NCBI GenBank assembly: GCA_945280365.1
Contig: CALYQD010000003.1
Coordinates: 1 to 64,000, forward strand
Direction of reading: 5' to 3'
DNA: 64,000 nucleotides
DNA from: an uncultured Apibacter sp.
GTDB taxonomy: Bacteria > Bacteroidota > Bacteroidia > Flavobacteriales > Weeksellaceae
Positions 14,913-59,253 of the stretch are shown one piece after another. Positions within the stretch are counted from its first letter, which is position 1. Each line of letters opens with the position of its first letter. A program made the position numbers and the translations under genes. The notes under the pieces are model-generated. The model was not told where the DNA came from, made no database searches, and saw only the letters and a list, made by a program, of their open reading frames with translations.

Positions 14913-15998
14913 TTATAAATATTTAAAATTTTGATTAATTTTTATACTTTTCAAAGAATGATACATCATAAGTATTGTATTTTCAACATCCTTTTTATGA
15001 ACCATCTCCACAGTAGTATGCATATACCTTAGAGGAAGAGAAATTAATGCAGATGGAATCCCTCCATTTGAATATGCAAAAGCATCGGTATCCGTACCGG
15101 TTACTCTGCTGGAAGCATGTCTTTGAAAAGGGATATTATTTTTTTCGGCACTTTCAATAATGAGTTCTCTTAAATTATTTTGTACAGCAGGTGCATAAGA
15201 AATAACCGGTCCATTACCACATTTTATTTCTCCATGTTTCATTTTATTAATCATAGGAGTGGTAGTATCGTGTGTAACATCTGTTACAATAGCTACATTG
15301 GGTTTTATAGTTTGAGTTATCATTTCTGCTCCACGCAATCCAACTTCTTCTTGTACTGCATTGGTTATATACAAACCAAAATCAAGTTTATCGTTATTTT
15401 CTTTGATAAGTTTTGCAACCTGAGCAATCATAAATCCTCCAACTCTATTATCTAAGGCCCTTCCAACGAAATAATTGGAATTTAAAATAAAAAATTCATC
15501 AGGATAGGTGATTATACATCCTACATGAATTCCTAATTCTTCAACTTCCTTTTTAGAAGTAGCACCGCAATCTACCCATAAAGTCTCAACCTTAGGAGGT
15601 TCTTCATTACCTGTATAATTTCTTGTATGAATAGCCGGCCAACCAAAAACTCCATCTAAAATTCCTTTCTTTGTATGAATATGAACTTTTTTTGAGGGAG
15701 CAATCATATGATCAGAACCGCCATTTCGAATTACATATAGTAAACCATCCTCAGTAATATAATTTACAAACCAAGATATTTCATCGGCATGAGCTTCAAT
15801 AACCACCTTATATTTTGCCTCCGGATTTATTATTCCGTAAGCTGTTCCGTAATTATCTGTTCGAATTTCATCAACAAATGGTGATACATAATCCATCCAT
15901 AGTTTTTGTCCTTTACTTTCAGCGCCTGTAGGTGAAGGAGTGTTTATATATCTTTCTAAAAAATTTAAAGATTTCTCATCTAAAATTGTTTTAATCAT
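14913..15998 (-). CDS. M42-family metallopeptidase (glutamyl aminopeptidase/endoglucanase-M type)
   Basis: This 361-aa cytosolic dinuclear-metal aminopeptidase has the expected elements: SPTGAESKG near the N-terminus, HADEISWFV (metal His and Asp), GRALDNRVGG (bridging Asp), QEEVGLRGAEM (catalytic and metal Glu), VTDVTHD, and the C-terminal SLPLRYMHTTVEMVHKKD. I chose the ATG at 15998 (MIKTILDE); the frame is open for 27 further codons upstream, but that part reads as non-coding DNA and would overlap the divergent DUF4294 gene. In bacteria the family trims N-terminal residues from peptides and forms large tetrahedral dodecamers. Confidence 0.93.
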   Translation of the reverse strand: MIKTILDEKSLNFLERYINTPSPTGAESKGQKLWMDYVSPFVDEIRTDNYGTAYGIINPEAKYKVVIEAHADEISWFVNYITEDGLLYVIRNGGSDHMIAPSKKVHIHTKKGILDGVFGWPAIHTRNYTGNEEPPKVETLWVDCGATSKKEVEELGIHVGCIITYPDEFFILNSNYFVGRALDNRVGGFMIAQVAKLIKENNDKLDFGLYITNAVQEEVGLRGAEMITQTIKPNVAIVTDVTHDTTTPMINKMKHGEIKCGNGPVISYAPAVQNNLRELIIESAEKNNIPFQRHASSRVTGTDTDAFAYSNGGIPSALISLPLRYMHTTVEMVHKKDVENTILMMYHSLKSIKINQNFKYL

Positions 15999-51186: not shown

Positions 51187-51492
51187 TTAGAACCATCCTT
51201 TATGACCTTTAATGTAGGTGTTATAAAAATCTTCATCTGATTTGGTTAGGTATATAATTCCTTCAATAAAGGCAATAGTCCAAGTGAATAGTGATGCCAA
51301 AAATAAAGTACCTAATGTAATACCAAGTGTAATATAACCTTCCTTTTTATATCCTAAAGCAAATTTGTGAACTCCTAAAGTTCCCATTAAAAATGCACTC
51401 ACACCTGCTGATAATTTTTTCTCCCTAGCAATTTTAAGCTGATCTTCGGAAAGTTTATTTCCTACATTGTTAACTTGATATTTTTCTTCCAT
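51187..51492 (-). CDS. TM2 domain-containing protein, copy 1
   Basis: This 101-aa membrane protein has a Lys/Glu-rich N-terminus (residues 1-27) and a TM2 domain: SAGVSAFLMGTLGVHKFALGYKKEGY (first helix and Gly-rich turn, with the H-x-F of the family), then helix ITLGTLFLASLFTWTIAFIEGIIYL. The tail KSDEDFYNTYIKGHKGWF follows the TM2 pattern of a conserved acidic start after the second helix. Function of the family is unknown. It differs from copy 3 by one amino acid (Tyr5 instead of Asn5). Confidence 0.9.
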   Translation of the reverse strand: MEEKYQVNNVGNKLSEDQLKIAREKKLSAGVSAFLMGTLGVHKFALGYKKEGYITLGITLGTLFLASLFTWTIAFIEGIIYLTKSDEDFYNTYIKGHKGWF

Positions 51493-51582
51493 AGTTACTT
51501 TAATTAAATTATAATATTAAATTTAGGCTGCTAAATTATATATAAATATTTATAAATAACTTTAAACAATTAAATATTGGAC

Positions 51583-51727
51583 TAATAATCAATCCTACGG
51601 CGGCAGAATTGTATATAAAAAGTCTTTTAATAAATTTAAAGATTTGTTTAAAAAAGATAGGAATAAAGAAATTTCTAAAATAAAAAAAAGACTTTTTAAA
51701 AATTTAAAAAATTATTCAAAAGAATAA
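51583..51727 (+). pseudogene. Duplicated tail of tamB (relic, unit 2)
   Basis: Bases 51583-51727 reproduce the last ~145 bp of tamB (51023-51167) with about eight differences, one of which shifts the frame in the Lys-rich tail. There is no upstream tamB body or start. It is a passive passenger of the tandem duplication. Confidence 0.9.
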
Positions 51728-51746
51728 TTTTATATTAAAATGTAGA

Positions 51747-52052
51747 TTAGAACCATCCTTTATGACCTTTAATGTAGGTGTTATAAAAATCTTCATCTGA
51801 TTTGATTAGGTATAAAACTCCTTCAATAATGGCAATAGTTCCTGTGATACTTGCTCCAAGAAAACAAGTACATATTGTAATACCGAGCATAATAAAACCC
51901 TCCTTATTATATCCTAAAATAAATTTGTGAACTCCAAAACCTCCAAAAAAAAATGCTAAAATACCTGCTATTACTTTTTTCTCCCTAGCAATTTTAAGCT
52001 GATCTTCGGAAAGTTTATTTCCTATATTGTTAACTTGATTTTTTTCTTCCAT
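51747..52052 (-). CDS. TM2 domain-containing protein, copy 2 (diverged)
   Basis: 101 aa, with the same ends as copies 1 and 3 (residues 1-25 and the last ~20 are nearly identical). The membrane core has changed: VIAGILAFFFGGFGVHKFILGYNKEGF and ICTCFLGASITGTIAIIEGVLYL, with two added Cys. The changes keep helix hydrophobicity and the GVHKF turn, so the gene looks functional and selected, perhaps for a different partner in a hetero-oligomer. Confidence 0.9.
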   Translation of the reverse strand: MEEKNQVNNIGNKLSEDQLKIAREKKVIAGILAFFFGGFGVHKFILGYNKEGFIMLGITICTCFLGASITGTIAIIEGVLYLIKSDEDFYNTYIKGHKGWF

Positions 52053-52143
52053 ATTTACTTTAATTAAATTATAACATTAAATTTTTTATATAGCTGCTAA
52101 ATTATAAATATTTATAAATAACTTTAAACAATTGAATACTGAG

Positions 52144-52275
52144 CAAATAAAGTCCTACGGCAGCAAAATTGTATACTAAAGAGTCTTTTAATAAATTTAA
52201 AAATTTGTTTAAAAAATAAGAATAAAGAAATTTCTAAAGTAAAAAAAGACTCTTTAAAAATTATTCAAAAGAATA
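52144..52275 (+). pseudogene. Duplicated tail of tamB (relic, unit 3)
   Basis: This is the same tamB-tail segment as in unit 2 but more decayed, with base changes and small deletions (TCCTACGGCAGCAAAATTGT at 52153 against the parental TCCTACGGCGGCGGAATTGT). It has no coding function. Confidence 0.85.
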
Positions 52276-52295
52276 ATTTTATATTAAAATGTAGA

Positions 52296-52601
52296 TTAGA
52301 ACCATCCTTTATGACCTTTAATGTAGGTGTTATAAAAATCTTCATCTGATTTGGTTAGGTATATAATTCCTTCAATAAAGGCAATAGTCCAAGTGAATAG
52401 TGATGCCAAAAATAAAGTACCTAATGTAATACCAAGTGTAATATAACCTTCCTTTTTATATCCTAAAGCAAATTTGTGAACTCCTAAAGTTCCCATTAAA
52501 AATGCACTCACACCTGCTGATAATTTTTTCTCCCTAGCAATTTTAAGCTGATCTTCGGAAAGTTTATTTCCTACATTGTTAACTTGATTTTTTTCTTCCA
52601 T
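52296..52601 (-). CDS. TM2 domain-containing protein, copy 3
   Basis: 101 aa, identical to copy 1 except Asn5 for Tyr5. The DNA of the two genes and their immediate flanks (~350 bp) differs at one base that I can find, whereas the neighbouring tamB relic in this unit is the most diverged. The gene was therefore recently homogenised with copy 1. Two membrane helices with the GVHKF turn place it in the inner membrane. Confidence 0.9.
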   Translation of the reverse strand: MEEKNQVNNVGNKLSEDQLKIAREKKLSAGVSAFLMGTLGVHKFALGYKKEGYITLGITLGTLFLASLFTWTIAFIEGIIYLTKSDEDFYNTYIKGHKGWF

Positions 52602-54949: not shown

Positions 54950-55757
54950 TTACATTTTCTGCTGAACAACTCTGTATTAACTAGAAGATATACGCTGGGC
55001 TAATGGAGTTATATATAAGTCATTTTGATACATTTTCAAAAACTTATAAATGTAAAAATAATAAATAGATGCAAAAATACTGGAAAGTGTTTCAACGTAA
55101 AAATCAATTCTTTGTTTGATAGCACTAAAAATAGCTTTATAAAAATGTTTTTTAATAATATGGTTAATTACTTCTTATAAAAGGGGGGATTCTCTGCAAT
55201 TATCTAAAAAATATTAATATAACTTAGAAAAAGCTTGTTTCTGCTAATTAGAATTAGAGCTAGTTTTGGCATCTCTAATCATTTTAATTAGTTAGATGAT
55301 GAAATCTTTATAGGTGAAAAAAATAAACATAAACATTCAAATAAAAAAGTTGTAAAATTCACAAAGGAAAAGTACAAAAGGTAAATCTCCAATCTTGGGA
55401 ATGATTCAAAGAAAAGGCAATTTAGTAGCTTAAATAGTTAAATACACTTTAAGCTAGAATTTATTAAAACAGATAAAACTCTGCATCTATTTATGCTGAT
55501 AAATGGCTAGGATAAAGATCTAAAATTAATTTTAATCCTAATTTGTAAACCTTATTTTAGAGTAATATGCAAATAATAAAACCATAGAAGGTTTCTGCTC
55601 TATATTAAAATATCATTTTACATTAAAAAACAACTTTAAAAAATATGTAGATGAATTCGTTTTTGGATACAATACAAGAAATAGTAATTAATCTACAAGT
55701 ATAAGATTTAATGTTTTACTTCAAAACTTAGAAAATAGATTAACTATTGAATTTTAA
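54950..55757 (+). pseudogene. Decayed IS1595-family (ISXO2-like) transposase
   Basis: Pieces of one DDE transposase lie in order but in shifting frames. EDIRWANGVI at about 54980-55009 is the zinc-domain region. CKNTGKCFNVKINSLFDSTKNSF lies at ~55070-55135. An LS-rich helix with an N-terminal Ile-Ser-type pattern lies at ~55190-55255. The first catalytic Asp region DDEIFIGEKNKHKH is at ~55295-55336. KGKSPILGMIQRKGNLVA is at ~55377-55430. The C-terminal IEGFCSILKYHF-type and NNFKKYVDEFVFGYNTRN segments end with RFNVLLQNLENRLTIEF near 55757. At least five frameshifts or stops make it inactive. It ends exactly where the 980-bp repeat begins, so the insertion probably truncated a KilA-N-type gene. 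Terminal inverted repeats could not be located. Confidence 0.75.
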
Positions 55758-56004
55758 TAATACCGGATGGTAAACTTAAATCCTAATTTTTACTTGGAGA
55801 TTTTTATAATGTATGGATAAAAGAACAAGCATCAAAGTATTTCAATGAAATAAACACGAACGCTCTTTCTTACTTAAATAAGATGATAATATGATTTAAT
55901 TTTCGTGCCATATAAATACAAAAAAAATGAAATAATTATCAGGTTTCCATCAAAATTAAAAACAACTATTGAATATACAGCATAAGATAAATTACAATAA
56001 ATTC

Positions 56005-56012
56005 TATATTTG
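56005..56012 (+). promoter_or_regulatory. -7 promoter element before the structured element (copy A)
   Basis: TATATTTG fits TAnnTTTG and is kept exactly in copy B (about 58404-58411). A transcript would begin near 56019 and reach the T-tract at ~56217, giving an RNA of roughly 200 nt. The -33 element is not obvious. Confidence 0.45.
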
Positions 56013-56072
56013 TAAAAAACATTTAAAAATACACTGCCTATGTAAAAATAAAAAATTGAAATAATCTAAGTT

Positions 56073-56217
56073 GCCGCTCAAAATACCACATTAAATTGCA
56101 GCTTTCCGATACACTATATTATGTTTCGCCAATTTTTGGTGCAGATAATCTTTTGTGTCGGAATGGGAGTGGTATCCCAAGAGCGGCGAAAGAATTAAAG
56201 CTGCACCTTTTTTTATT
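56073..56217 (+). ncRNA. Candidate structured RNA with pseudoknot and T-tract end, copy A
   Basis: Complementary segments: GCCGCTC (56073-56079) with GAGCGGC (56181-56187); TACCAC (56084-56089) with GTGGTA (56169-56174); CCGA-TA-CAC (56106-56114) with GTGTCGG (56155-56161); and a hairpin CGCCAA-TTT-TTGGTG (56127-56141). TGCAGCTTT (56097-56105), inside the outer stem, is complementary to AAAGCTGCA (56197-56205), beyond its 3' strand, which forms a pseudoknot. CCTTTTTTTATTT follows at once. An alternative hairpin TGGGA-GTGGTA-TCCCA would present GTGGTA in a loop. It lies 25 bp before the small membrane protein gene. It could be a small RNA, a riboswitch-like attenuator, or a DNA hairpin used in recombination. 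No known class recognised. Confidence 0.5.
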
Positions 56218-56241
56218 TGCAATTATTTAAAATATTAAAAA

Positions 56242-56712
56242 ATGAATCAAAACCAACCAGTTGTTAAAAAAAATAATAGCTATATAATCGTAGCAATAGT
56301 ATTTATATTCATATTTATAGGAATGGTTATTGGAATATTATTTCTTTTTAAAAATGCCATTAAACAATCGACAAACCAATCAACTAAACAAACAGAGCTA
56401 CAAAAAAATCTTGTTTATAAGGATATTTTTGTATTTAAAGGGAATGGGAAAAAAAAATCAGAAGTTTTTCATTTATCAGGAAATGAGGCTAAATTTGTTT
56501 ACAAATATTCACCCGGATCAGAAACGGAAATATTTACGGTATATGTAGTTGATAAAGGAGTTGATATTCTTGATAAAGGAGAAATACCGGAAATAATGGC
56601 TGCAAATAAAAAAGAAGAAAGTGAAAGTATAATCTATAAGTCGGAAGGAGATTATTATTTAGATGTAAATGCTGTGGGTGATTGGGAAATAATAGTGCAA
56701 GAAAAACAATAA
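56242..56712 (+). CDS. Small membrane-anchored protein with an extracytoplasmic beta domain
   Basis: This 156-aa protein has a short polar N-terminus with NNSYIIVAIVFIFIFIGMVI (one membrane helix, residues ~12-35), a Gln/Thr/Lys linker (NAIKQSTNQSTKQTELQK), then a beta-rich domain (residues ~58-154) with FKGNGKKKSEVFHLSGNEAKFVYKYSPG, a YVVDKG strand, and a closing SEGDYYLDVNAVGDWEIIVQE. The final pattern (YxxxGxYYLxVxAxGxWxIxV) is shared by widespread small exported domains of unknown function, often in proteins with an N-terminal membrane anchor. It is preceded by the structured element and followed by its own terminator. A broken second copy lies at 58643. Confidence 0.75.
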   Translation: MNQNQPVVKKNNSYIIVAIVFIFIFIGMVIGILFLFKNAIKQSTNQSTKQTELQKNLVYKDIFVFKGNGKKKSEVFHLSGNEAKFVYKYSPGSETEIFTVYVVDKGVDILDKGEIPEIMAANKKEESESIIYKSEGDYYLDVNAVGDWEIIVQEKQ

Positions 56713-56716
56713 TTTT

Positions 56717-56742
56717 AAAGGGTTCTATTTTGAACCCTTTTT
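56717..56742 (+). terminator. Rho-independent terminator after the small membrane protein gene (copy A)
   Basis: The 9-bp stem AAAGGGTTC / GAACCCTTT with loop TATTTT is followed by TT. It starts 4 bp after the stop codon. Confidence 0.85.
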
Positions 56743-56855
56743 ACGTGTAATCTATTTTATAAACCATTTTCTACATAGTAAAATCATCATTTCATCCTAT
56801 CCAAAATATCTTTCATAAGTTAGCTTTCTCTTTTTAGCTTTCTAATAAAAGTTTT

Positions 56856-57269
56856 TTACTTTTTTTCAATCAACTTCTCCAATTTATCAATCATTTCCTT
56901 TTGTTGTTGAAGCATACGTTCATAAAGTTCCACCATTTTATCCACAGGGTTGAAGCTTGGTTGATAATTAAATCCTGAAGCAACAGCATTATCTTTAAAA
57001 TCTTGAAAAGAATATGTATTTGCGATAATATTCACCGCTTGTTCCTCATCAAAATTTTTAATAGCCTCCGTGGGAACTTTTAAGAATCCGGCAATTTTTT
57101 CTAACACTTTATCGTCTAATGTTTCTTTAGATTCATAATCTGATATAGAAGATTGGGAAACTCCCATATCAAAAGCCAACGTTTCCTGTTTTATACCTAA
57201 TATTTCACGAAAACGTTTAATATTTCTACCTTGATGTATCTTTCTGGATGTTGTCTTATCTATAGTCAT
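56856..57269 (-). CDS. XRE-family helix-turn-helix regulator, divergent from the SymE-like gene
   Basis: This 137-aa protein has an XRE helix-turn-helix (residues ~13-68: IKRFREILGIKQETLAFDMGVSQSSISDYESKETLDDKVLEKIA) and a C-terminal coiled-coil (KMVELYERMLQQQKEMIDKLEKLIEKK) for dimerisation. It is divergent from the SymE-like gene, with 155 bp between start codons, so it probably represses it and itself. Regulators of this shape recur beside SymE-like genes in Bacteroidota, by my recollection. It may act as antitoxin-like control. Confidence 0.9.
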   Translation of the reverse strand: MTIDKTTSRKIHQGRNIKRFREILGIKQETLAFDMGVSQSSISDYESKETLDDKVLEKIAGFLKVPTEAIKNFDEEQAVNIIANTYSFQDFKDNAVASGFNYQPSFNPVDKMVELYERMLQQQKEMIDKLEKLIEKK

Positions 57270-57424
57270 AAGGCAAATGTACTAATTTATCTTTGGGCTA
57301 ATATACAAAAAAGTCAAATAAAATATAAGATAAAAAACAGTGATGTTTGGTAAAAAATCAGTTTGTAAAATTGAATTTCGAGCAGGGCAGAACTTCCTTT
57401 GCGGAAAGAAAAAATCAGAAATAT

Positions 57425-57628
57425 ATGGAAATTTGTAAATATAAAAGCAAAACTAAAATACGATCTATAAAAATATATGAAAGGGATTTTAAAAGAGCCA
57501 GTTTTCATTATATGTCTTATCCGGAAATACGTATGGCAGGGAAATGGTTGCAGGATTCGGGGTTCAGAACCGGAGACCAAGTAGTAATTAAGCATAGTAA
57601 AAAAAGGATTGTTATTACTAAGGTTTGA
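57425..57628 (+). CDS. SymE-like toxin protein
   Basis: This 67-aa basic protein ends with the SymE/AbrB-like fold: RRASFHYMSY-type lead-in, then PEIRMAGKWLQDSGFRTGDQ and VVIKHSKKRIVIT. In E. coli SymE is an SOS-induced protein whose mRNA is held down by the antisense RNA SymR. I choose the ATG at 57425; a TTG at 57347 in the same frame would add 26 residues with no family resemblance. It is divergent from an XRE regulator. Toxicity and mode of control here are inference. Confidence 0.82.
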   Translation: MEICKYKSKTKIRSIKIYERDFKRASFHYMSYPEIRMAGKWLQDSGFRTGDQVVIKHSKKRIVITKV

Positions 57629-57841
57629 ATAGGTTAAATATAAAAGAGAATATTCTTTTGTCTTGCTACAAATGCTTTTGCATTCTTTAAAACCTTAAAA
57701 ATTTATTAAAGAAGTGAAAAAAAGAGTTAAAAATTCAAGAAAAAAACTCGCTATCGCTCAAACATATATTTTTTTTGTTTTTTAATTTAAAAAAATCATA
57801 CTCTATACAATATAACAATAAGGCTAGTAACTTCCAATTAG
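57629..57841. other. Intergenic DNA after the SymE-like gene
   Basis: It holds a small palindrome (AGAGAATATTCTTTT near 57651) and an AT-rich stretch. CTTCCAATTAGGAAG at 57831-57845 forms a 5-bp hairpin at the left edge of the KilA-N remains. No gene recognised. Confidence 0.4.
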
Positions 57842-58275
57842 GAAGCTATTTACCAAAGAGTTATTGATGGATATTTAAATGCTACAGCATATATGTAAAG
57901 CTATATATAAAAGGTTTTGCAGAATACACAAGATTAAAGAGTAGCAATAAATTTAGCTCAATGAGTTTGTCCCAAATTTTATGTATTTGTTTCTAATTAA
58001 ATCATACTTAGATAGGAATTATCTTATATAAATTAGTTGCAGATATTTCGCAAGGTAGAATGTTTGTAAGTTGGGCGAGAAAGAAAAGTATTAGGAACTA
58101 ATAACTTTCTTTCTTATTACTTATGCTTATTCTAATGGTAGAGCAATACCGGATTTTAAACTATATCCTAATTTTTATTTAGAGATTTTTATAGTGAATG
58201 GATAAAAGTACAAGCATCTAAGTATTTCAATGAAAGAAACACAAACGCTCTGCCTTGCTTAAATAAGATAGTAAT
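57842..58275 (+). pseudogene. KilA-N domain pseudogene
   Basis: The frame starting at 57842 reads EAIYQRVIDGYLNATAYM, then stops, and later RVAINLAQ-stop-VCPKFYVFVSN. These are the conserved start (R-x-x-DGYxNAT) and the VAINLAQW-x-SPKFxVxVS block of KilA-N domains of phage and related origin. The intervening helix (LQNTQD) is shortened. A later stretch (GRAIPDFKLYPNFYLEIF at ~58140-58195, with a frame change) would be the C-terminal part and begins the 980-bp repeat. Several stops make it inactive. KilA-N proteins are DNA-binding, often antirepressors or phage regulators. Confidence 0.7.
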
Positions 58276-58471
58276 ATGATTTACCTAAAAGTCAATATTT
58301 TATACCATTGAAATACAAAAAAAATGAAAGAATTATTAGGTTTCTATCAAAATTTAAAAAACAACTATTGAGTATGCCGTATAAGATAAATTATAATAAA
58401 TTCTATATTTGTAAAAAACATTTGAAAATACACTGCCTATGTAAAAATAAAAAATTGAAATAATCAAAGTT

Positions 58472-58617
58472 GCCGCTCAAAATACCACATTAAATCGCAA
58501 ACTTTCCGATACACTATATTATGTTTCACCAATTTTTGGTGCAGATAATCTTTTGTGTCGGAATGGGAGTGGTATCCCAAGAGCGGCGAAAGAATTAAAG
58601 CTGCACCTTTTTTTATT
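58472..58617 (+). ncRNA. Candidate structured RNA, copy B
   Basis: It differs from copy A by three substitutions and one inserted base in about 145 nt. All outer stem segments (GCCGCTC/GAGCGGC, TACCAC/GTGGTA, CCGATACAC/GTGTCGG) are unchanged. In the inner hairpin one base differs, turning a G-T pair into A-T (CACCAA-TTT-TTGGTG). The pseudoknot strand is altered (GCAAACTTT at 58497-58505 instead of GCAGCTTT), leaving only four of nine pairs, so copy B may lack the pseudoknot. Confidence 0.45.
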
Positions 58618-58642
58618 TACAATTATTTAAAATATCAAAATA

Positions 58643-59099
58643 TTGATTTAAAACAAACCAGTTGTTTAAAAAATAATAGCTATACAATCGTAGCAGTAGT
58701 ATTTTTATTCATATTTATAAGAATATTATTTCTTTCTAAAAATGTCATTAAACAATCAACAAACTAATCAACTAAACAAACAGAGACATAAAAAAATCTT
58801 GTTTATAAGGATATTTTTATATTTAAAGAGAATGGGTGAAAAAATCAGAAGTATTCTATTTATCAGGAAATGAGGCTAAATTTGTTTACAAATATTCACC
58901 CGGATCAGAAATGGAAATATTTACAGTATATGTTGTTGATAAAAGAATTGATATTCTTGAGAAAGGAGAAATACCGGAAATAATGGCTGCAAATAAAAAA
59001 GAAGGAAGTAAAAGTATAATCCATAAATCGGAAGGAGATTATTATTTAGATGTAAATGTTGTGGGTAATTGAGAAGTAATAGTGCAAGAAAAACAATAA
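58643..59099 (+). pseudogene. Broken copy of the small membrane protein gene
   Basis: Aligns along its whole length with 56242-56712, but the ATG has become TTG followed after one codon by a stop (58643-58651). There are several small deletions, including frame changes near 58700-58850, and an in-frame TGA near the end (GGTAATTGAGAA at ~59064). Two fragments of the beta domain stay readable, so the decay is fairly recent. Confidence 0.9.
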
Positions 59100-59103
59100 T
59101 TTT

Positions 59104-59127
59104 AAGAGGTTTGATTTCGTCCTCTTT
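59104..59127 (+). terminator. Terminator hairpin of copy B (register-shifted)
   Basis: AAGAGG (59104-59109) pairs with CCTCTT (59121-59126), followed by TTT. The sequence aligns base for base with the copy A terminator but pairs one position out of register, because changes on both arms restored complementarity. Confidence 0.6.
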
Positions 59128-59253
59128 TTAGTGTAAATTTTCATATAATTAGCAATTTTAATTTACTTGTTAAATAATATAGATTTATAGATTTTCATAT
59201 TATATTCAAGATTTTAAGAGTAAAAAATATTTTTAGAGTCTTAATTCTTTATA

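Follow-up and report, generated by a model that had tools for sequence, protein, structure and literature searches.

The stretch analysed here (the window) is 64,000 nt of DNA from an uncultured Apibacter sp., and it carries two near-identical elements that can fold into nested helices and that end in a run of T. The question raised by this locus is what has been conserved: an RNA that acts on the gene behind it, an RNA that acts elsewhere, or a site in the DNA. An earlier note on this DNA had preferred a trans-acting RNA or a DNA-level site to a cis leader alone. We compared the two copies with each other, with their homologues and with known RNA families, and examined the genes and mobile DNA that adjoin them.

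Two copies of the element within one duplication

The nested arms that had been read in the sequence are present: GCCGCTC with GAGCGGC and TACCAC with GTGGTA (P1 and P2 in Table 1), and the TTCCGATACA/TGTGTCGGAA stem. The T-run directly follows, and the copy at 58472-58617 differs, as described, by three substitutions and one insertion; one of them, G56128 to A, converts a G-U into an A-U pair within the apical hairpin. Both copies folded far better than their shuffled sequences, with z-scores of -4.2 and -5.5 and 0 of 200 shuffles folding as well.

The earlier note did not record that both copies lie within one duplication of about 1 kb, which also holds a 156-aa gene, intact in copy 1 and a pseudogene in copy 2. 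The two duplicates have diverged unevenly: the promoter region and RNA (56001-56217) differ at 5 of 217 aligned bases, compared with 45 of 458 in the ORF (p 2e-4 against the promoter and RNA block) and 32 of 242 in the region upstream of this block (p 1e-5). The conservation of copy 2 beside a dead gene could come from recent gene conversion or from selection on the RNA itself. For the near-identity of these two window copies, conversion in place of selection is a serious candidate, to which we give somewhat less than even weight. The block of about 220 bp, 97.7% identical within an 89% duplication, looks as a conversion tract would; on the other hand, the block coincides with the promoter and the RNA, which is structurally conserved across the phylum, and none of the changes in copy 2 disrupts a conserved pairing. 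A third match in the BLAST search of the own genome (G000:C7) was rejected as a further copy, being AT-rich low-complexity sequence.

The 156-aa protein has a C-terminal relative (47%) in genome G088. Between the two RNA copies lie a SymE-family toxin ORF (57347-57625, + strand; PF08845, E 1.7e-11) and an XRE-type regulator (56859-57269, - strand), and upstream of copy 2 a decayed frame (57840-57990, + strand) appears KilA-N-like by translation reading. Elsewhere in the window, a 101-aa TM2-domain protein is present in three tandem copies (51187-52601, - strand).

Table 1 Features of the element and its surroundings in the window.
Feature	Positions	Strand	Remarks
RNA element copy 1 (core, tail and T-run)	56071..56217	+	covariance-model matches R1-R3
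RNA element copy 2	58470..58617	+	covariance-model matches; compared with copy 1, 3 substitutions and 1 insertion
P1 5' arm	56073..56079	+	GCCGCTC; partner 56181-56187; 97.5% of cells paired, 68 copies
P1 3' arm	56181..56187	+	GAGCGGC
P2 5' strand	56084..56089	+	TACCAC; 98.5% paired
P2 3' strand	56169..56174	+	GTGGTA; also the 6-nt loop of hairpin P4
P3 5' arm	56104..56113	+	partner 56154-56163
P3 3' arm	56154..56163	+	
Apical hairpin	56127..56141	+	CGCCAA-TTT-TTGGTG; 98.8% paired, 68 copies
P4 hairpin around P2 3' strand	56165..56178	+	GGGA-(GTGGTA)-TCCC
Tail partner, alternative to apical hairpin	56138..56144	+	GGTGCAG; 96.0% paired vs 89.1% shuffled
Tail	56201..56207	+	CTGCACC; 7 bp with 56138-56144
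T-run directly behind tail	56208..56214	+	terminator-like
Candidate promoter box	56005..56012 (copy 2, 58404-58411)	+	TATATTTG; by sequence, match to Bacteroidota -7 box TAnnTTTG
Duplicated segment, about 1 kb	55759..56750 (copy 1), 58145-59135 (copy 2)	+	89% identity over 1008 aligned columns
Downstream gene, 156-aa membrane-anchored protein	56242..56712	+	no Pfam family above cut-off
Pseudogene of the same ORF behind copy 2	58657..59098	+	several stops
Decayed IS1595-type transposase, immediately upstream of duplicated segment copy 1	55190..55757	+	three-frame translation reading

A structured RNA family with compensatory change

With a covariance model built from both window copies (R1), genome G163, which belongs to the same family, gave a single strong match (E 4e-8 per genome). 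The first stem of this relative is GUCGUUC/GAACGAC against GCCGCUC/GAGCGGC in the window, two compensatory changes; the third stem pairs in the same way with almost none of its sequence shared. The model of three sequences (R2) led to four more relatives (E 3e-12 to 2e-8), from distant families of the phylum, and that of seven sequences (R3) to about 100 copies in 53 of 323 genomes from the distant class of G984, with at most five per genome. R3 also matched 34 of 296 genomes drawn from the order of the window; apart from the window's own, these matches were weaker (E 3e-8 to 6e-3), the best of them aligning with the same architecture and some of the weakest being perhaps chance matches. A last phylum-wide draw, which overlapped the earlier ones, gave matches in 6 of 91 genomes. 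For comparison, copy 1 itself was matched by the three models with E from 7e-41 to 1.5e-24. One named copy is unannotated on plasmid pB3-10 of Rhizosphaericola mali (NZ_CP044017.1, about 15042-15183), before a hypothetical gene. Searches of phages and plasmids at the nucleotide level, with the elements of the window, G163 and L027 as queries, gave no match, nor did scans of viral contigs with DNA patterns and the transposase.

In the alignment of 68 copies (A6), changes on both sides of a pair were found at all 35 of the 35 modelled pairs, and 96.1% of the cells could pair, compared with 64.3% after shuffling and 38-44% in slid controls. This alignment was fitted to the model and so is biased toward it, but by far less than the size of the effect; moreover, the same stem was obtained from independent minimum-energy folds of single copies. 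The shuffle and swap controls leave relatedness in, and a subset of 40 copies below 70% identity gave the same picture. The covariance-model search, which the earlier note had named as the decisive check for a structured RNA, thus returned homologues with massive compensatory change. We conclude that the element is a real structured RNA family of about 145 nt with more than 100 copies across Bacteroidota.

Hairpin P4 was paired in 94.1% of cells against 78.1% after shuffling and 33-54% in slides, its stem being GGGA/UCCC in the window and GGCA/UGCC or GGUA/UACC elsewhere. A short A/U stem, P6, is common around the P2 5' strand (8.9 for own against 8.2 for swapped strands), and is weak or absent in the window copies. 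On the modelled fold, P2 is probably a loop-type contact, kissing or pseudoknot, to which the P4 loop would offer its strand; judged by geometry, P2 and P4 could form simultaneously or could exclude each other. Along the helices, G-U outnumbered A-C on the + strand by 160 to 44, and about a third of the copies have GNRA apical loops; both fit an RNA transcribed from the + strand.

The suggestion of a possible new RNA also held. Rfam 15 at gathering score, including Flavo-1, 6S-Flavo, Bacteroidales-1, Chlorobi-1 and the riboswitches, gave 0 matches in the window and 20 homologue loci; with E up to 10 the window element had only unrelated sub-threshold matches, and with E up to 1 none was found over the element in 19 further loci. 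No earlier description was recognised in the open literature that was searched.

Tail pairing, T-run and the genes behind

A crossing helix between TGCAGCTTT (56097-56105) and AAAGCTGCA (56197-56205) had been proposed as the basis of a pseudoknot. This helix is disrupted in copy 2, where its 5' arm (TCGCAAACTTT) carries two of the three substitutions as well as the insertion, and it is not conserved among the homologues. The pseudoknot idea itself survives in part, since the tail does take part in a pseudoknot-type pairing, with GGTGCAG of the apical hairpin as partner instead of TGCAGCTTT. This pairing of CUGCACC with GGUGCAG is intact in both window copies and in essentially all homologues, for example as GGGCGUAUUC/GGAUAUGCCC in locus L102 and GGCGUUCC/GGAACGCC in L101; slides paired in 28-76% of cells, and 43 two-sided cells were counted compared with 9.9 after shuffling. 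At a threshold of -8 kcal/mol for the duplex energy it was present in 66 of 68 copies, whereas a local tail hairpin, P5, was present in 49 of 68; copies that have no P5, among them those of the window, G163 and L101, retain it. In the window the energies favour the tail pairing, at -12.5 against about -6 for the apical hairpin.

At least five T were found in the seven bases after the tail in 98.5% of the 68 copies (median 6 of 7), against 5% of random positions. At the sequence level the element thus shows the arrangement expected of a transcription attenuator, a terminator-like stem before a U-run together with a competing pairing. At the other end, boxes like TAnnTTTG, the consensus of the Bacteroidota -7 promoter box (PMC9723704), were found in the window and several homologues, and most homologues have an extra small hairpin upstream of the element.

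We took as downstream gene the nearest one within 1 kb by simple ORF calling, which left 5 of the 68 copies without a callable gene. In all 63 callable copies this gene was on the same strand as the RNA, with none opposite (p 2e-19), as is expected of a cis-regulatory leader, and the median gap was 59 nt; upstream genes were mixed in orientation (36 same strand, 26 opposite). The preference of the earlier note for a trans-acting RNA or a DNA-level site finds no support in the family, in view of this strand rule, the excess of G-U over A-C and the absence of integron attC cores. A free-standing trans-acting sRNA with its own promoter and terminator, merely carried with accessory genes in mobile DNA, is in our opinion unlikely. 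It would suit the promoter-like box, the terminator-like end, the several copies per genome and the 98% conservation of copy 2 beside a dead, drifting ORF. However, it gives no reason for the constant same-strand gene, copies in the same genome have hypervariable helices, and no conserved unpaired stretch resembling an antisense seed was seen.

The downstream genes are diverse and include those for secreted proteins, restriction-modification and response regulators. Among 61 downstream proteins there were 11 with T9SS sorting tails, 6 with BNR repeats, 4 with fn3, 3 DNA methylases and 3 response regulators, and a TonB-receptor-like protein stands behind one order-level copy; no pathway is common to these genes. 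Upstream genes include XRE regulators, ParE-type toxins, DUF932, resolvases and integrases. A linked gene family or toxin-antitoxin partner was rejected, as clustering and scanning of the upstream and downstream proteins revealed no wide recurrence; minority recurrences were BNR-type secreted proteins downstream and XRE/ParE-type genes upstream. As separate observations, loci L067, L106, L118 and L109 have a common hairpin before unrelated genes about 100-170 nt after the RNA, in most with the loop ACGGCAATGC or similar. In L128, L134, L137, L138 and L035, divergent XRE-type regulators lie about 150 nt upstream, with a similar TTTGCGATACTTCAA stretch behind a promoter-like box, which suggests a recurrent island type in their family.

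Some copies lie in or beside mobile DNA. In G163 the RNA is inside an IS1595-type transposon (L019:131-2879), right behind the transposase, with 38-nt inverted repeats and an 8-bp direct (target) repeat, TTAATTTA, at the ends. Other copies adjoin resolvases and an integrase, and one is on pB3-10, the plasmid named above. The RNA was not found in five other IS1595 loci (L020-L024, with R1 for L020). A contig scan with the transposase of G163 turned up a single relative, which lacks the RNA; an IS1595 guide RNA, a candidate prompted by the G163 find, was rejected on the absence from these other loci. More broadly, an internal component of IS1595-family transposons, such as a guide or regulatory RNA of the transposase, is hardly credible and already largely refuted: the G163 transposon and the decayed IS1595-type gene before window copy 1 speak for it, and against it most RNA copies have no adjoining IS1595 gene, in addition to the five loci devoid of the RNA. 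One 38-aa piece of that decayed frame has a weak tblastn match to an IS1595 transposase (E 0.2) and no Pfam match. The association with mobile DNA therefore recurs, yet no single transposon owns the RNA. The L019 transposon also carries a uracil-DNA-glycosylase-like gene and small ORFs, and its transposase reading frame has one shift near 1236. Within L019:1501-1690, CGTTCAAAATTACCACA just before the downstream start codon repeats the 5' half of the RNA (CGTTCTAAATTACCACA), through which the 3' strands of the RNA could, on sequence grounds, pair with the ribosome-binding region.

The family, its pairings and covariation, the same-strand gene, the T-run and the mobile contexts of some copies lead us to favour, with some reserve, a mobile cis-acting leader in which termination at the T-run would be set by the choice between the apical hairpin and the tail pairing. 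From these data we infer transcription, control of termination, switching and control by some signal. The RNA would be transcribed from its own promoter as the mRNA start of whatever gene stands behind it. P1, P2 and P3 would form first, together with the apical hairpin; the emerging tail could then invade this hairpin, taking over its 3' strand from the 5' strand, and so form a duplex directly before the T-run, P5 being a further option in many copies. Depending on the winning pairing, RNA polymerase would halt at the T-run or continue into the gene. The six-base loop of P4 would offer the P2 strand, and the P2 contact would shape the receptor part. Moving with mobile DNA, the unit would be placed before unrelated accessory genes. 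Counted against this leader are the absence of P5 in a fair fraction of copies, so that the terminator is not uniform, the lack of a common pathway, the copies with no callable gene, and the window copy that is still well conserved beside a pseudogene.

If the leader reading is true, mobile Bacteroidota genes for secreted proteins, restriction systems and signalling proteins, on plasmids and transposons, carry their own RNA-based control. Two questions follow: which one signal would make sense for genes so unrelated, and why the helices diverge so fast. The 68 aligned sequences, the covariance model and the named plasmid copy are ready objects for a test.

Diverging stems and related systems

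Between copies within one genome, the approximately 70 nt upstream can be 89-99% identical, compared with mostly 8-70% for P1 and P3. The identities for L090/L095 are 0.89 upstream, 0.29 in P1 and 0.08 in P3, and those for L075/L080 are 0.95, 0.21 and 0.23. In genome G1056 the common upstream stretch reaches back 270 nt, and similarity ends at or near the RNA end. This divergence of the stems could reflect ordinary, fast compensatory evolution in a leader that is otherwise conserved, an exchange of cassettes at the element, or selection against cross-reaction. A bolder proposal, to which we give a rather small chance, is that the RNA is a portable control module and that its copies in one genome undergo active diversification of P1, P3, the apical hairpin and the tail, next to such constant upstream DNA; each copy would then be a switch of its own that does not cross-react with the others, or would have arisen by cassette exchange at the element.

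The same pattern bears on the proposal that the hairpin is a recombination or insertion site in DNA, similar to an integron attC, which captures gene cassettes behind it. We consider this improbable. The near-identical upstream DNA of some same-genome copies with different stems and genes, the recombinases adjoining some copies and the diverse, same-oriented cargo genes would agree with it. However, the attC core pair (RYYYAAC/GTTRRRY at the hairpin ends) was found in 0 of 68 copies, and the integron attC was rejected as a candidate on this count; no second copy was found in the stretches of about 6 kb examined, the window duplication excepted; and the T-run, promoter box, GNRA loops and G-U excess fit an RNA. 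The element and attC sites have in common imperfect hairpins, variable stems and adjoining diverse accessory genes, whereas the element is devoid of core sites and arrays and has RNA-type features.

Returning to the cis-acting leader, the element resembles orphan riboswitch and attenuator leaders in its 5' position before a same-strand gene, its compact multi-helix fold, its loop and tail pairings, its terminal T-run and its mutually exclusive pairings. In contrast to these, its genes share no pathway, which also separates it from most metabolite riboswitches, and it is sporadic, mobile and matches no Rfam family. Purine-type riboswitches consist of a closing helix and hairpins with kissing loops. 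By analogy, the element has a closing helix and hairpins whose loops may pair (P6 and P4 via P2), but adds a long central hairpin and the tail pairing and has no Rfam match.

Flavo-1 (RF01705; PMC2864571) is likewise an orphan of Bacteroidota, but does not match the window element at E up to 10 or the other loci at E up to 1, and its matches are reported in sense and antisense orientation indistinctly (PMC9723704), unlike the strict same-strand rule of the element. Weinberg 2010 lists, with Flavo-1, an un-deposited GUCCY-hairpin motif in Bacteroidetes (PMC2864571), which we set beside the element by this listing and not by sequence. Rfp1-89 of Flavobacterium psychrophilum (PMC9723704), compared by description only, are also structured Flavobacteriia transcripts unmatched in Rfam. 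Judged by these searches, the family is without an Rfam 15 entry and previously unnamed, the comparison with the Rfp RNAs and the GUCCY-hairpin being one of descriptions.

Two further observations concern the DNA upstream of the diverging stems. In L112, L075, L076, L080 and L073 (G1056), a second conserved attenuator-like structure lies 30-270 nt upstream of the RNA; in the common leader of G1056 it consists of AGGGTT, an inner hairpin that is apparently covarying, and AACCTTTTT. In L090 and L095, about 40-530 nt upstream of the RNA, there are two short ORFs (70-90 aa) that by inspection resemble toxin-antitoxin genes and are 85% alike between the two loci although the RNA stems and the downstream gene differ.
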